Shown piece by piece: positions 1 to 5,255 of a stretch of 64,000 bases of DNA. The stretch comes from Proteus vulgaris. GTDB lineage: Bacteria; Pseudomonadota; Gammaproteobacteria; Enterobacterales; Enterobacteriaceae. The stretch covers positions 3,410,001 through 3,474,000 of the forward strand of contig NZ_CP137920.1 of assembly GCF_033708015.1 (NCBI RefSeq), in the 5' to 3' direction. The notes under the pieces were generated by a model. The model worked only from the letters and a program-made list of their open reading frames with translations. It had not been told where the DNA came from and did not search any database. Within the stretch, counting starts at the first letter, position 1, and every line of letters begins with the position of its first letter. The position numbers and the translations under genes are program-made.

Positions 1-344
1 GAAAAGGCGTCGCCACTGCATTTGGTGCTATTGCTGCCATTGGCTGGGATTTAAGTGGTCTTATCGCAGGAACGTGGTTACTCACCGTCTTACTGAGTGG
101 CTATTCATCGCTTGGTGCGATTATCAGCGCACTGCTTGCCCCTTTTTACGTCTGGTGGTTTAAACCAGAATTCACTTATCCCGTCGCGTTATTATCATGC
201 CTTGTACTTTACCGTCATCATGACAATATTCAACGTTTATGGCGTGGCCAAGAAAGTCGTATCTGGCATAAATTGAAGAAAAAAACCGAAAAAACAGAAA
301 AAGAGATCATTCAAGAAGCGAAAGAGCAAGAAAAAGAAGATTAA
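1..344 (+). CDS. plsY: Glycerol-3-phosphate acyltransferase PlsY, C-terminal part
   Basis: Only the last 113 residues are in the window; the reading frame enters at base 3 and stops at 342-344. PlsY is the inner-membrane enzyme that moves an acyl group from acyl-phosphate to glycerol-3-phosphate, the first step of phospholipid synthesis. The visible part starts with the glycine-rich KGVATAFG motif of the third conserved PlsY block, continues through two hydrophobic segments, and ends in a charged Lys/Glu tail that is longer than a minimal PlsY end. In E. coli plsY also lies close to tsaD, separated by the ttd tartrate genes, so the neighbourhood supports the call. Truncation is due only to the window edge. 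Confidence 0.92.
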
Positions 345-400
345 TCGCCTTTACCCCAAAGCTCAACTAGCTCTGATATAGGTTGGCAACTTTTAGGTAT

Positions 401-435
401 AAAACGCTCGATAAATCTCATCGAGCGTTTTATGG
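401..435 (+). terminator. Hairpin terminator after plsY
   Basis: Perfect 11-bp arms AAAACGCTCGA (401-411) and TCGAGCGTTTT (421-431) enclose a 9-base loop. The arms end in a short T run and the site is 57 bases past the plsY stop. Confidence 0.8.
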
Positions 436-586
436 TTTAATGATAAGTAAGATCATTTCTTTATTTGGTCAACAACGCCCAATTTAAAGTCAAGGGAATT
501 ATCGCGTTGACTTACTCGTTTTATTACATTCTCCAATTGTAGATTGGAAAAATATCCATCTTATTTAAAACGGATCAGTCAGAATA

Positions 587-622
587 AAAAAGCACCTATT
601 CAATTAATAGGTGTTTTTTCTC
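587..622. terminator. Second hairpin, probably bidirectional terminator
   Basis: Arms CACCTATT (593-600) and AATAGGTG (606-613) close a 5-base loop. The hairpin is flanked by an A run on the left and TTTTTT on the right, so it could stop transcription from either side. Confidence 0.65.
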
Positions 623-903
623 TTCAAAACAAATTGAACTAATCATCTCTAGTTTAAATTGCAATTAATAGTCAATTAAATAATATTCATAATAATATTA
701 CCTAAAATAAATATATCATTTTTATTAAAATAGAATTAATTATATAAGTTAATTAAAAAAAATAATTAATCTTAATTAATATCGTTCATTAAAAATCATA
801 AGAAAACATTATAGAAATCATAAAATTAAATACAAAATACAACTATTAGATTATATCAACCTCGAGTTTATTAAAAATAAATTACTTGAATATCTATCAA
901 CTT

Positions 904-925
904 ATGCCTATTAATTAATAGGCAT
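904..925. promoter_or_regulatory. Perfect 22-base palindrome ahead of the rraA-like gene
   Basis: The left arm ATGCCTATTAA (904-914) is followed directly by its exact reverse complement TTAATAGGCAT (915-925), 46 bases before the chosen start of the next gene. A CAAAAAAAC string follows. It could be a repressor operator or a leader hairpin; the absence of a loop favours a protein-binding site. This is inference only. Confidence 0.45.
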
Positions 926-971
926 CAAAAAAACAAAAATCATTTCAATATTCATTTTGTTGGAGCTACCC

Positions 972-1670
972 ATGCTTGCAAAAATAGATAAAAGTATTAT
1001 TGATTCAATAAAAAAAATGAAATTAAGCACATCAACACTCGTTGATATTCTTGATGGGTTAGGAAAAACAACGGTTTTAAACAGCCAATTAAAAATTATT
1101 AATAAAGAGGATTTTTATTCTGTTGCTCAGGCTTATACCGTTCAATGGAAATTAATAAGAAAACAGAAATCTATCTTAGAAAAACAGCCCTCAACTTGGG
1201 AGCAAGTAAGCCCTTTTCTCGTTCCTGAATTAACAGAGGCCAAAGGATTAATCTATATTGCCGGCGGCTATGAATTAATTACAGAGGCGGCTCTTGCGGG
1301 TGGAATGAGTTGTACTTATTTTGAGAAGCTCGGATTTGAAGCCGTTATTCTCGGAGGAGCTGTACGCGATAAAAATGAACTGATGGATTTAACAATACCC
1401 GTTATTGCCACTAATCTTACTCCCACAGATACACAAGGAGCCTACCTTGTGAGTGAGACCGGAACTCATTGCACAATTGAATATTCAACGATTTATAGTG
1501 GCGATCTCGTCGTTTCAGATCCTAATGGCACCGTAATTATTCCTCTAGATCTCATTGAGAGCGTACTACAAAAAGCAAAAAAAATTCATCGCATTGAAAG
1601 CAGTATGATAAAAAAAATCAAGCAAGGGGAACGCTTACCTGAGCTAATTAACACAACTGGTCGTATATAA
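972..1670 (+). CDS. RraA-like / HMG-aldolase-fold protein
   Basis: The 232-residue protein belongs to the RraA / dimethylmenaquinone-methyltransferase-like fold. That family includes the RNase E inhibitor RraA, 4-hydroxy-4-methyl-2-oxoglutarate aldolases and related oxaloacetate decarboxylases. Visible family signs are an N-terminal STLVDILDGLGK block (about 20-31), GGAVRD (128-133), whose Arg-Asp pair lies at the substrate/metal site, and GDLVVSDPNGTVIIP (177-191). Start: the longest frame opens with TTG at 957, but the ATG at 972 has GGAG six bases upstream and is preferred. It is the first gene of a tight set with a prephenate-decarboxylase-like gene, a cupin and a DAHP synthase. An aldolase or decarboxylase acting on a keto acid of that pathway is more likely than RNase E control, but this is inference. 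Confidence 0.8.
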   Translation: MLAKIDKSIIDSIKKMKLSTSTLVDILDGLGKTTVLNSQLKIINKEDFYSVAQAYTVQWKLIRKQKSILEKQPSTWEQVSPFLVPELTEAKGLIYIAGGYELITEAALAGGMSCTYFEKLGFEAVILGGAVRDKNELMDLTIPVIATNLTPTDTQGAYLVSETGTHCTIEYSTIYSGDLVVSDPNGTVIIPLDLIESVLQKAKKIHRIESSMIKKIKQGERLPELINTTGRI

Positions 1671-1685
1671 TTGAGGCATCATAAA

Positions 1686-2210
1686 ATGATAAATATTCAT
1701 ACATTAGGGCCTTCTGGAACAAACTGTGAAAAGGCTGCACACTACTGGTTAAATAAAAATAATCGACAAGGTAATATTATTCTTCACCCTACGCTAGAAA
1801 CAGCAGTGAAAGAAATGGATAACAGTTCAAATAGTGTTTTGTTAGGTTGTATTGTTTATCCCTATTTACATAATATCGTTTTTAGCAATCTTTCATTTAT
1901 CAAATTAACCGATTGCTTTGTTATGGACACCCATAATATGTTATTTGCCAGTCGATTTAATAATATTAATGAGATAAAAAAATTAGGCTCTCACCCTGCG
2001 CCTAAAGATCTATTTAAAAAAATAAAAGAACTCGATAATATAGAGAAGTTATTATTTAATTCAAATAGTGAAGCAGCTCTCCAATGTAGTTTAGGTAATG
2101 TTGATGGTTGTATTACAACTTTAAACGCAGCTGAAAAACACCATTTAAACATTCTCTCTGATTTTGGCCCTATTCCTATGGGGTTTTCAATTCATTCTAA
2201 ATTAATTTAA
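1686..2210 (+). CDS. BacA-like prephenate decarboxylase homologue
   Basis: The 174-residue protein carries the ligand-binding blocks of the prephenate dehydratase fold: TLGPSGT (6-12), SHPAP (102-106), NSNSEAA (125-131) and IPMGFSI (163-169). It ends where true dehydratases have their catalytic Thr-Arg-Phe (TRF) motif, which is missing here, and it has no ACT regulatory domain. The same layout, including TLGPEGT, SHPSP, NSTSQAA and IPMSWSL, is what I recall for Bacillus BacA. BacA decarboxylates prephenate without aromatisation to dihydro-hydroxyphenylpyruvate in bacilysin synthesis. Start: TTG at 1671 opens the frame, but the ATG at 1686 has GAGG nine bases upstream. The gene begins 15 bases after the rraA-like stop. 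Substrate is inferred from the family and from the neighbouring cupin and DAHP synthase. Confidence 0.75.
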   Translation: MINIHTLGPSGTNCEKAAHYWLNKNNRQGNIILHPTLETAVKEMDNSSNSVLLGCIVYPYLHNIVFSNLSFIKLTDCFVMDTHNMLFASRFNNINEIKKLGSHPAPKDLFKKIKELDNIEKLLFNSNSEAALQCSLGNVDGCITTLNAAEKHHLNILSDFGPIPMGFSIHSKLI

Positions 2211-2284
2211 TTCAGTTTTTTATTATAAAAAATTTATATTTAAATTAATTATTAACTTGTTTATTTAATAATGAGGCTATCAAT

Positions 2285-2683
2285 ATGAGTTTATATTTAT
2301 CTAATGAAATGATCTCTTACGATATGGATTTGAATAGAAATGAAGGTGAAGAAAGTAAAATCCAAGCTAAGTTTATTCATGGAACTGATTTTACAATTGC
2401 ATTTTGGACATTTAAACCTAATGCCGTTATCCCTGAGCATAAACACGAGCATGAGACTGCAACAACAATATTAAAGGGTTCACTCAAACTCACTGTTAAT
2501 GATCGCATCGTATATTTACATGCAGGTGACTCTTTTATTATTCCCTCTTGGGCGATTCATCACGCTATTGCACTAGAGCCTTCTGAAGTTATTGATGTGT
2601 ATACCCCAGTAAGAGAAGACTATGTCGCAAGACAAAATGGCATTATCAAAACCTATTTAGAGACCTCTCAACCACAAGAATAA
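2285..2683 (+). CDS. Small single-domain cupin
   Basis: The 132-residue protein is a single cupin barrel. Motif 1 carries HKHEHE (52-57) and motif 2 is GDSFIIPSWAIHH (81-93), giving a likely metal site of two histidines from HxH, a Glu and a C-terminal His. The start ATG has GAGG eight bases upstream. In bacilysin synthesis the partner of BacA is the double-cupin BacB, which isomerises the dihydro-hydroxyphenylpyruvate product. A one-domain cupin beside a BacA-like gene could do the same, but a generic dioxygenase or isomerase role cannot be excluded. It lies 74 bases after the BacA-like gene and 59 bases before the DAHP synthase. Confidence 0.78.
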   Translation: MSLYLSNEMISYDMDLNRNEGEESKIQAKFIHGTDFTIAFWTFKPNAVIPEHKHEHETATTILKGSLKLTVNDRIVYLHAGDSFIIPSWAIHHAIALEPSEVIDVYTPVREDYVARQNGIIKTYLETSQPQE

Positions 2684-2688
2684 GCGTG

Positions 2689-2717
2689 TAGCGAGGCTTA
2701 ATCCTCGCTTATCTTTT
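2689..2717 (+). terminator. Weak hairpin between cupin and DAHP synthase genes
   Basis: Arms AGCGAGG (2690-2696) and CCTCGCT (2703-2709) enclose a 6-base loop and are followed by a broken T tract. It may reduce rather than stop read-through into the next gene. Confidence 0.45.
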
Positions 2718-2742
2718 CTCGTTAGTTATAGGAGTACTCGCA

Positions 2743-4155
2743 ATGCTTAGCACTTATGATATTGATGTTTTGACTGGACGTAATGATAAAGCACACCAAT
2801 TCGCTAACAATAAGCTATTAAATAATGTGGTTCCATTATCATGGCGACCTTCATCGTGGAAGGCATTACCGTCCAAACAACTACCAGAATATCCCGATAT
2901 TCATGCACTGACTTATTGCCAAGAAAAATTAAAAAACAGTCCACCGTTAGTTCTAGCATCAGAAATAAGAGAATTTAAAAATTTATTAAAACTAGTAGCG
3001 AAAGGAGAAGCTTTTCTCCTTCAGGGGGGGGATTGCGCAGAATCTTTTGATAATTGCCAATCAACTATTATTCGAGATTTAACCTTTACCTTGGCACAAA
3101 TGTCTGCATTGATAGAGCAATCAACCGGATTACCTGTGATAAAGTTGGCACGTATCGCGGGTCAATATGCCAAGCCTCGTAGCCAGCCTTTTGAAACACA
3201 AAACGGCTTAACCTTACCCAGCTATCGCGGTGAAATCATTAATGGTTTAGATTTCTCAACCAAAAGCAGAGAGCCTGAACCCTTAAGAATGATCACGGCT
3301 TATCATCATTCTGCGGTCACATTAAATTTGTTACGAGCAATGAATTGTACTCAATATGCGAGGCATAAAAACGCACTAGAGATTAAAACCTACCCAGGTT
3401 CAACAGAGCCAGCTCACTATTCTAATTTATTGGAGCAACTCTATCATTCTCAGCAATATATTATCAATAAATGTCCCGATACTTCCTCCTATTATATCAG
3501 CCATGAAGCATTACTTTTACATTATGAAGAGGCAATGAGCCGCCAAGATTCTGAAGATAATAAATGGTATAACTGCTCAGCGCACATGGTTTGGGTTGGA
3601 GAAAGAACAACCGATATTGATCACGCTCATATTGAATATCTTCGCGGGATAGAAAATCCTATTGGTATAAAATGTAGTTCAAGAATGTCAGGCGAAAAAC
3701 TTATTTCGCTTATTGATAGGCTAAATCCTGAAAATGAAGTAGGTAAAATCATTTTAATTGTACGAATGGGAAAAGATGCCATTCATTCTCATCTACCTGA
3801 ATTGGTTAAAGCCATACAACATCATCATCGTTCTGTTATCTGGCTTATTGATCCTATGCATGGCAATACACAGTCTACAAGCGCAGGTATCAAGACTCGC
3901 CATTTTCCTGATATTGCCTCAGAAACTCGTGCTTTTATTCATATTCTTCATGATATGGGGATTCAGGCAGGAGGAATACATTTAGAAATGACAGGACAGG
4001 AAGTCACGGAATGCACAGGTGGATTACAACAAATTAATCCTACAGACTTAAGTCATGGGTACCAAACGTTATGTGATCCTCGACTTAATCGAACACAATC
4101 ATTAGAACTTGCTTTTCTTGTAGGACAACACTGGACAACAATGTCTTATAGCTAA
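2743..4155 (+). CDS. Class II (plant/phenazine-type) DAHP synthase
   Basis: The 470-residue enzyme would condense phosphoenolpyruvate and erythrose-4-phosphate into DAHP, the entry to the shikimate pathway. Class II signs are GGDCAESF (95-102), RIAGQYAKPRS (137-147), a GERTTDIDHAH block near 285, DPMHGNT, GGIHLEMTGQEVTECTGG and CDPRLN near the end. The length suits the class. SD GGAG lies eight bases before the ATG. Enterobacteria normally use class I AroF/G/H; an extra class II enzyme beside secondary-metabolism genes usually supplies that pathway free of feedback control (general knowledge, for example phenazine PhzC). Odd point: a run of eight G at 3024-3031 encodes the first Gly-Gly of GGDCAESF and is preceded by an 8-bp hairpin at 3002-3021. 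Confidence 0.9.
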   Translation: MLSTYDIDVLTGRNDKAHQFANNKLLNNVVPLSWRPSSWKALPSKQLPEYPDIHALTYCQEKLKNSPPLVLASEIREFKNLLKLVAKGEAFLLQGGDCAESFDNCQSTIIRDLTFTLAQMSALIEQSTGLPVIKLARIAGQYAKPRSQPFETQNGLTLPSYRGEIINGLDFSTKSREPEPLRMITAYHHSAVTLNLLRAMNCTQYARHKNALEIKTYPGSTEPAHYSNLLEQLYHSQQYIINKCPDTSSYYISHEALLLHYEEAMSRQDSEDNKWYNCSAHMVWVGERTTDIDHAHIEYLRGIENPIGIKCSSRMSGEKLISLIDRLNPENEVGKIILIVRMGKDAIHSHLPELVKAIQHHHRSVIWLIDPMHGNTQSTSAGIKTRHFPDIASETRAFIHILHDMGIQAGGIHLEMTGQEVTECTGGLQQINPTDLSHGYQTLCDPRLNRTQSLELAFLVGQHWTTMSYS

Positions 4156-4172
4156 CTCTAAAATAATGAGAT

Positions 4173-4212
4173 AAAAAAGCGCTTTGATAACATACCAAAG
4201 CGCTCCATCTTT
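4173..4212. terminator. Terminator shared by DAHP synthase and tsaD
   Basis: Arms AGCGCTTTG (4178-4186) and CAAAGCGCT (4196-4204) enclose a 9-base loop. Six A at 4173-4178 give a U run for leftward tsaD transcription; rightward the tail is weaker (CCATCTTT). Confidence 0.8.
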
Positions 4213-4235
4213 GAATTATTTTTAGCTTATTACGA

Positions 4236-5255
4236 TTAACGTGTTAATGCAGGTAATTCCGCTAAAGGCCAACGTGGTCTTACTGTCACACTTAACGGGC
4301 CTTCAGTACCGCCTTTAAAGCGGATCATGCCTGCTAGTGCAATCATTGCACCATTATCAGTACACAATTCAGGGCGCGCATAAAAAACTTCACCGTCTAA
4401 TTGTTTCATTACGGTTTCCATTTTTGCACGCAATGTACGGTTAGCACTGACACCTCCCGCCATCACTAAACGTTTAAAACCAGTTTGTTCTAACGCTCTA
4501 CGACATTTTATCGCCAGCGTATCAACAACCGCATCTTCAAATGCACGAGCAATATCCGCGCGAGTTTGGTCTGAATCATCATTTTGACGGATAGTATTCG
4601 CCGCAAAAGTTTTTAAACCTGAGAAACTAAAATCAAGTCCAGGTCTGTCGGTCATTGGACGAGGAAAAACAAAGCGACCTTCTGTACCTTGTTGTGCCAT
4701 TTTCGATAATACTGGACCGCCAGGGTAATCTAATCCCAACAATTTTGCCGTTTTATCAAAAGCTTCACCAGCAGCATCATCAATAGATTCACCTAATAAG
4801 GTGTATTCGCCAATTCCCGTCACACTAATTAACTGTGTATGCCCACCAGAAACCAGAAGTGCGACAAATGGAAATTCAGGTGTTTTCTCTTCAAGCATAG
4901 GTGCCAATAAATGGCCTTCCATATGGTGAACAGGGATCGCAGGAACATCCCACGCAAAAGCTAATGAACGTCCAATAGTTGCGCCTACAAGCAACGCGCC
5001 AACAAGACCAGGGCCAGCGGTATAAGCAACCGCATCAATATCTTGTGCCGTAAGATTTGCTTCTTTTAGTGCCGCTTGAATAAGCGGTACTGTTTTACGG
5101 ATATGATCCCGTGAAGCAAGCTCAGGAACGACACCACCATAATCAGCGTGCAGTTTAATTTGGCTATAAAGTTGATTCGCTAATAGACCGGCTTTATCAT
5201 CGTAAATTGCGATACCGGTTTCATCGCAAGATGTTTCAATACCTAAAACTCGCAT
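4236..5255 (-). CDS. tsaD: tRNA N6-adenosine threonylcarbamoyltransferase TsaD
   Basis: The 339-residue protein transfers threonylcarbamoyl from TC-AMP to A37 of ANN-decoding tRNAs, in complex with TsaB and TsaE. It begins with the Kae1/YgjD signature [10 protein letters not shown] (5-14), has the metal-binding histidines H111 and H115 in HHMEGH, and the nucleotide-binding VSGGHTQL and [10 protein letters not shown] blocks. The length is typical. It is divergent from rpsU with a 342-base gap, the same arrangement as in E. coli. Confidence 0.97.

Follow-up and report, generated by a model that had tools for sequence, protein, structure and literature searches.

A laterally moved gene cassette of Proteus vulgaris with a TdaC-type protein, and a tentative route from prephenate to a non-aromatic small molecule

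Gene content and movement of the cassette

The stretch considered here, referred to as the window, is 64,000 nucleotides of the Proteus vulgaris contig NZ_CP137920.1 (assembly GCF_033708015.1, positions 3,410,001 to 3,474,000), and it contains a cassette of four genes inserted between plsY and tsaD. All four open reading frames are intact and lie on the + strand, in the order RraA-fold protein, prephenate dehydratase (PDT)-like protein, cupin and class II DAHP synthase:

972-1670, + strand: RraA-fold protein, 232 residues from the ATG at 972 (PF03737, 57.2 bits)
1686-2210, + strand: TdaC-type PDT-fold protein, 174 residues from the ATG at 1686 (PF00800, 31.1 bits; cut-off 25.2)
2285-2683, + strand: single-domain cupin with the motif HxHxHET, 132 residues (PF07883, 56.8 bits)
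2743-4155, + strand: class II DAHP synthase, 470 residues (PF01474, 562.2 bits; cut-off 27)

The initial annotation of this DNA had read the same four families, namely an RraA fold, a PDT-like protein, one cupin stretch and a class II DAHP synthase, and Pfam assigns them likewise. It had also described four tightly spaced genes; the genes are present and open, while the intergenic gaps of 15, 74 and 59 nt make the spacing only loosely tight. A TTG is located upstream of the RraA-fold ATG, at 957. The cassette genes have a GC content of 0.305 to 0.383, and the window as a whole 0.373; upstream of the cassette, a stretch of 627 bases is AT-rich (GC 0.247).

The insertion site is variable among relatives. 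In 20 Proteus genomes plsY adjoins tsaD in 16, the two genes standing roughly 85 to 123 bases apart (four loci in reversed orientation were measured by hand from their coordinates), and the cassette occupies the site in two. Of the remaining two, one contig (L041) begins at the site and the other (L057) carries other sequence there; in the latter, from Proteus genome G002, positions 1-1500 hold a frame read as LysR-type within the filled gap. The PDT-like gene is present in 2/20 Proteus genomes, and the same two also hold a class II DAHP synthase, a gene found in 7/60 relatives searched and within Proteus limited to these cassette genomes. The claim that the ttd genes fill the plsY-tsaD gap in E. 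coli was borne out in the one genome checked, CUWW06, where the order is plsY-ttdR-ttdA-ttdB-ttdT-tsaD. Because the contents vary in this way (cassette, no insertion, LysR-type frame, ttdRABT), the gap is a site of gene exchange, as had been proposed.

Outside the window, a scan of named genome contigs yielded 10 loci in seven genera: four in Providencia and one each in Proteus mirabilis, Buttiauxella, Yersinia similis, Serratia liquefaciens (a metagenome-assembled genome), Aeromonas tecta and Acinetobacter rudis. The search patterns were taken from the window protein, so that these loci represent close relatives only, and the PDT-like proteins of two of them (L002 and L012) are identical and thus not independent. 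Morganella also carries relatives according to protein lists. In 10/10 loci an RraA match lies just upstream and a cupin just downstream of the PDT-like gene, an order that is not expected by chance. A DAHP synthase is encoded in eight; it was not found in Acinetobacter L008 and Yersinia L010, where the cupin is followed by a transposase-like frame and then by the contig end.

The flanks of these loci differ. By our reading of the flanking frames, acs/actP presumably accompany the four Providencia loci, pepN and pncB surround the Buttiauxella cassette, tad-type genes precede the Yersinia cassette, and other genes adjoin it in Aeromonas, Serratia and Acinetobacter. In Serratia L007, an ATP-grasp-like frame is read before the cassette and a frame of the major facilitator superfamily (MFS) type after it. 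The cassette is a laterally moved, self-contained unit, and its recurrence in at least six genomic settings argues that its genes suffice for the function. Some copies are irregular. The RraA match of Providencia heimbachae (L006, 7404-7976) spans residues 42-232, with the first 41 residues missing and no in-frame start found; in Providencia alcalifaciens BIGb0506 (L011, 8001-10405) the PDT-like and DAHP synthase matches both shift frame, through decay or sequencing errors; and a 199-residue metagenome protein, P0042, joins part of an RraA-fold protein to part of a PDT-like one and is probably a deletion product.

Wider sampling added no further strong member: among 394 genomes of the order and among 369 of the class, five in each had a match, these being the own genome and four weak matches, and one weak match from the wide sampling (L018) is nearer to BacA. 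There were zero matches in 50,697 phage records and zero DNA-level (blastn) matches in 5,426 E. coli genomes, and in a plasmid collection searched with the RraA-fold protein the sole finds were two records from P. mirabilis. We came upon no account of the cassette in the open-licence papers searched.

The TdaC-type protein

PF00800 is the sole Pfam family found in the 174-residue protein, a weak member of it, and no ACT domain was found by Pfam. The TRF motif is likewise absent: the C-terminus reads ...IPMGFSIHSKLI, and the columns aligned with TRF read Ser-Ile-His in a joint alignment that holds a single PheA row, so that the match of these columns depends on the alignment. The statement that this is not a normal prephenate dehydratase and lacks both TRF and ACT held, and TRF is lacking in 90 aligned rows.

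These 90 rows define a TdaC-type set. The window protein is 44% identical over 171 residues to TdaC of Phaeobacter, and 26-33% identical to the BacA-type proteins compared; TdaC and BacA-type proteins made up the comparison set. Ten residues (T12, N13, C14, E15, H103, N127, C134, C142, M165 and H170) are common to it and TdaC and are the same in 90/90 TdaC-type rows, a constancy that is partly by choice, as either the window protein or an annotated relative served as query for collecting the rows. Of these ten, N13, C14, C134 and H170 do not occur in the BacA-type rows. E15, M165 and an aromatic residue at 167 are shared with BacA-type proteins, and the window protein also fits the BacA-type description of a PDT fold without TRF and ACT. 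By its shared invariant set and its higher identity than to the other groups, the protein is on sequence grounds TdaC-type. A sequence search of PDB with it gave chance-level matches only, and the family profile matched only 4lub (E 0.15).

In a quick tree of 58 rows, which include 35 of 120 listed proteins chosen by hand, the six BacA-type rows, of which one BacA row was entered by hand and the Streptomyces sp. Mg1 row taken from its record, group in a clade of their own (SH-aLRT 100), and the window protein falls in a 26-row group (97) with relatives from Pseudomonas, Burkholderia and Trinickia. The BacA-type proteins thus appear as a separate clade, for which no sister relation to the TdaC-type is claimed. 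Rows linked to an RraA gene occur at several places in the tree (the main cassette group, P0056, P0057 and P0110), which hints at a repeated or an old pairing. The initial annotation had called the protein BacA-like, a name that gives way here to TdaC-type, TdaC being the nearer relative. Direct BacA orthology was rejected on the separate clade and on 26-33% identity versus 44% to TdaC. The candidate of an ordinary prephenate dehydratase was also rejected, with neither TRF nor ACT present and a PheA-like gene elsewhere in the genome, where the second PDT match is strong (208 bits).

The two known relatives are found in other company. In 20.5 kb around the TdaC gene the annotation shows neither RraA nor cupin nor class II DAHP synthase; the neighbours there are LysR, glutathione S-transferase, thioesterase and acyl-CoA dehydrogenase genes. 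As in the cassette, a cupin gene adjoins the BacA-type gene in Streptomyces sp. Mg1; the BacA-type (bacilysin) setting differs by an aminotransferase, short-chain dehydrogenases/reductases and an exporter that are missing from the cassette.

In the review PMC7497051, the role of TdaC is called obscure and a supply of phenylpyruvate is suggested. On that model the TdaC-type protein would be an aromatising or unrelated dehydratase, and the cassette would boost the supply of phenylpyruvate or phenylacetate. A DAHP synthase suits such precursor supply, and the TRF Thr column retains Ser/Thr in 89/90 TdaC-type rows. The Phe column, however, is His in 90/90, TRF and ACT are both missing, the genome already has its PheA-like gene, and the RraA-fold protein and cupin would be left unexplained; we consider this account improbable. 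For TdaC itself, a normal dehydratase role is disfavoured because TRF is lacking in the 90 rows, yet Ser/Thr is kept in the Thr column, and from the alignment TdaC as a phenylpyruvate supplier looks doubtful. The TdaC encoded on a Phaeobacter inhibens plasmid (L016, 10001-10489) is without the dehydratase TRF, like the whole TdaC-type set.

TdaC-type genes are also encountered in settings that lean towards the synthesis of unusual amino acids or small molecules. In Staphylococcus xylosus the gene stands with an ATP-grasp ligase and a drug/metabolite transporter (DMT) exporter, in Pseudoalteromonas near three ATP-grasp genes, a transaminase and exporters, and in Pantoea X85 near an ATP-grasp gene and EamA; the Serpentinimonas neighbourhood is without ATP-grasp. 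Two ATP-grasp proteins scanned reached 62 and 57 bits with the alanine-anticapsin ligase model (cut-off 850), under other models. The S. xylosus set (L014, 9766-12507), which comprises the DMT exporter, the ATP-grasp ligase and the TdaC-type gene on a mobilizable plasmid from fermented soybean, could possibly serve a dipeptide antibiotic. DUF6421 (PF19985), a putative partner enzyme, adjoins TdaC-type genes in L013, L015 and L025, two of which also have ATP-grasp ligases. On Pantoea and P. aeruginosa plasmids (L026, L027) a BacA-type gene is accompanied by an AMP-ligase-type gene, a branched-chain aminotransferase (BCAT), a carboxymuconolactone decarboxylase family member, ornithine cyclodeaminase and LysE, and a related set in Streptomyces (L060) lies beside nonribosomal peptide synthetase and polyketide synthase genes.

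Partner proteins and flanking elements

The AlphaFold2 model of the RraA-fold protein has a pLDDT of 91.7, and its best Foldseek match is 3k4i, followed by others including 5ir2, 5x15 and the HMG/CHA aldolase 3noj (E 4e-14); the model is closer to these than to E. coli RraA. The protein carries the motif G111-X20-R132-D133 together with E209, which in the 3noj alignment (counted by hand) fall on D102, R123, D124 and E199. Among 48 aligned rows, consisting of the window protein and 47 of 67 relatives from a word-based search (alignment A2), G111, R132 and D133 are identical in 48/48 and E209 in 47/48, so that a partner with an enzyme-type active site, as first read, is substantiated. The relatives include members from Streptomyces and Methylococcales on contigs equal in size to those of TdaC-type matches (376,762 and 4,799), a hint that the RraA and TdaC-type genes there share a contig.

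According to PMC5065237, R123 of HMG/CHA aldolase stabilises the pyruvate enolate and Asp-124 and Glu-199 bind the metal, and the majority of homologues with one of two motifs are likely class II pyruvate aldolases. From fold, the Arg-Asp metal/catalytic pair and E209, the cassette protein is predicted to be a class II (metal-dependent) pyruvate-enolate enzyme. It differs from such aldolases, HMG/CHA aldolase included, in that its X20-R-D motif opens with Gly in place of Asp, in scoring far under the LigK/HMG-CHA aldolase equivalog cut-off (35.7 versus 304.5 bits), and in being partnered with a PDT-fold protein. PF03737 also includes RraA itself, so that the protein might be an RNase E regulator whose gene stands among the others by chance; with 14 bits against an RraA_entero cut-off of 241.25, a model nearer to 3k4i, 5ir2, 5x15 and 3noj, and a gene order kept in 10/10 loci, this is scarcely credible. 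On the RraA_entero score, the RNase E regulator RraA was rejected as an assignment.

The motif HxHxHET is invariant in 18/18 aligned cupin rows, its final position being Thr in the cassette cupin; the two best PDB matches and a BacB-like protein have Gln there. BacB is a double cupin, and the cassette protein has one cupin stretch in 132 residues, against 233 residues for the BacB-like partner; the cassette cupin weakly matches residues 156-227 in a BacB-like protein (E 4e-5 for that one pair). By analogy the cupin is proposed to be an isomerase.

The DAHP synthase is full length, with 5uxm as its best PDB match (E 2e-133), and contains QGGDCAE, GQYAKPRS, DPMHGNT and CDPRLN, which we take to be the catalytic motifs of class II DAHP synthases. 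It matches these enzymes over its full length (562 bits for PF01474) and differs from them in being tied to a specialised cassette and in falling under the NCBIfam TIGR01358 equivalog cut-off (543.3 versus 614.7 bits). Flux supply is its proposed role.

Two further elements flank the genes, and no RNA element was found in 300-4300 at E up to 0.5:

904-925: perfect 22-bp palindrome ATGCCTATTAATTAATAGGCAT, read in the sequence upstream of the first cassette gene
4176-4206: terminator-like hairpin separating the DAHP synthase gene from tsaD, with a 14-pair stem and then a T run on the - strand

In four of the 11 upstream regions compared (the window, P. mirabilis L012, and Providencia L003 and L004), the palindrome 11-mer CTATTAATTAA stands 48-64 nt ahead of the RraA gene start; L006 entered this comparison with a start that was not a true one. 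There is no second site for CTATTAATTAA elsewhere in the window. The palindrome may be an operator.

A proposed route from prephenate

From these features we infer the activities and the product of the cassette as a horizontally moved module that diverts the shikimate pathway, in a four-step route to a C6 product; this overall reading is plausible to us, at slightly less than an even chance. In PMC9147277, BacA is described as decarboxylating prephenate without aromatising it, after which BacB isomerises the product. In the first step of the proposed route, the extra class II DAHP synthase would raise flux to chorismate and prephenate. In the second, the TdaC-type protein, which we propose is a non-aromatising prephenate decarboxylase, would hold prephenate in its PDT-type cleft and, without TRF, decarboxylate it as BacA does, a step that is somewhat more likely than not. 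In the third, the cupin would move a ring double bond toward the exocyclic position, giving, as with BacA and BacB, a keto acid whose exocyclic double bond is conjugated to the pyruvyl ketone.

In the fourth step the RraA-fold protein would act on the pyruvyl side chain, with D133 and E209 holding the metal ion and R132 stabilising the pyruvate enolate. Addition of water at the ring carbon would yield a 4-hydroxy-2-oxo acid bearing a tertiary alcohol, which is the type of substrate cleaved by HMG/CHA aldolase, and retro-aldol cleavage would release pyruvate and a hydroxycyclohexenone of the C6 type, 4-hydroxycyclohex-2-enone. As the protein retains the residues with which class II pyruvate aldolases bind metal and catalyse, we favour a pyruvate-enolate lyase that works once prephenate has been decarboxylated without aromatisation; cleavage rather than isomerisation is a tentative suggestion, less likely than not. 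Still less likely is the complete proposal, in which a TdaC-type decarboxylase, a cupin isomerase and an RraA-fold hydratase-aldolase would strip the carboxylate and pyruvyl arm from prephenate, with no aromatisation, to give CO2, pyruvate and a reactive compound of the 4-hydroxycyclohex-2-enone type, and TdaC is likewise such a decarboxylase.

The main rival is near the view of the initial annotation, whose observations and outline of interpretation stand, while its closest relative was wrong and its product overstated. Here the product would be a C9 non-aromatic keto acid of the dihydro- or tetrahydro-hydroxyphenylpyruvate type, converted by host aminotransferases to an amino acid, and the enolate chemistry of the RraA-fold protein would merely isomerise. 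Such a product agrees with the aminotransferase or amino acid ligase genes that cluster with BacA-type genes and with some of the TdaC type, and with the weak likeness of the cupin to BacB; the conserved cassette, however, has no aminotransferase, reductase, ligase or exporter, and the full pyruvate-aldolase residue set exceeds the apparent need of an isomerase. We regard the C9 product as possible but on the doubtful side. The absence of aminotransferase, ligase and exporter fits the cleavage route.

A catabolic cassette, in which the same folds degrade an environmental cyclic keto acid for pyruvate, has also been considered. The Serratia L007 cassette has neighbours that we read as 4-hydroxybenzoate/protocatechuate genes. 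RraA-fold aldolases are known in aromatic catabolism, as PMC5065237 states. The DAHP synthase in 8/10 loci points instead to synthesis, and there is no uptake gene within the cassette, which makes a degradative role very unlikely.

Several points weigh against the four-step route. We know of no activity for any TdaC-type protein, and the chemistry may differ from that of BacA-type proteins, to which identity is low and in which the constant N13, C14, C134 and H170 are absent. Some branches of the quick tree are very long (PheA 10, BacA-type stem 8.4), and it places the BacA-type clade inside TdaC-type rows at unsupported forks. The third-ligand position of the cupin is Thr, not Gln, and the E209 end of the 3noj alignment is of modest confidence. 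The fold is not always that of an aldolase, FlDet, an RraA-family enzyme, being described in PMC8563752 as a dehydratase/decarboxylase. A missing step could come from host aminotransferases, and the Serratia cassette does have an MFS-type frame downstream.

The key enzyme of the cassette, judged from identity and shared residues, is a close relative of TdaC from marine tropodithietic acid synthesis, and the cassette, as a unit of three to four genes, provides a compact setting in which to test the TdaC-type proteins, a family without a settled function even in that well-studied pathway. If TdaC is such a decarboxylase, the supply of tropodithietic acid would have to be rethought; should the RraA-fold protein split a keto acid derived from prephenate, the shikimate pathway would gain a new branch and the RraA fold a new role. 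The cassette, which has moved among many gut and soil bacteria, appears to divert an intermediate of the aromatic amino acid pathway to a small molecule that is probably non-aromatic.

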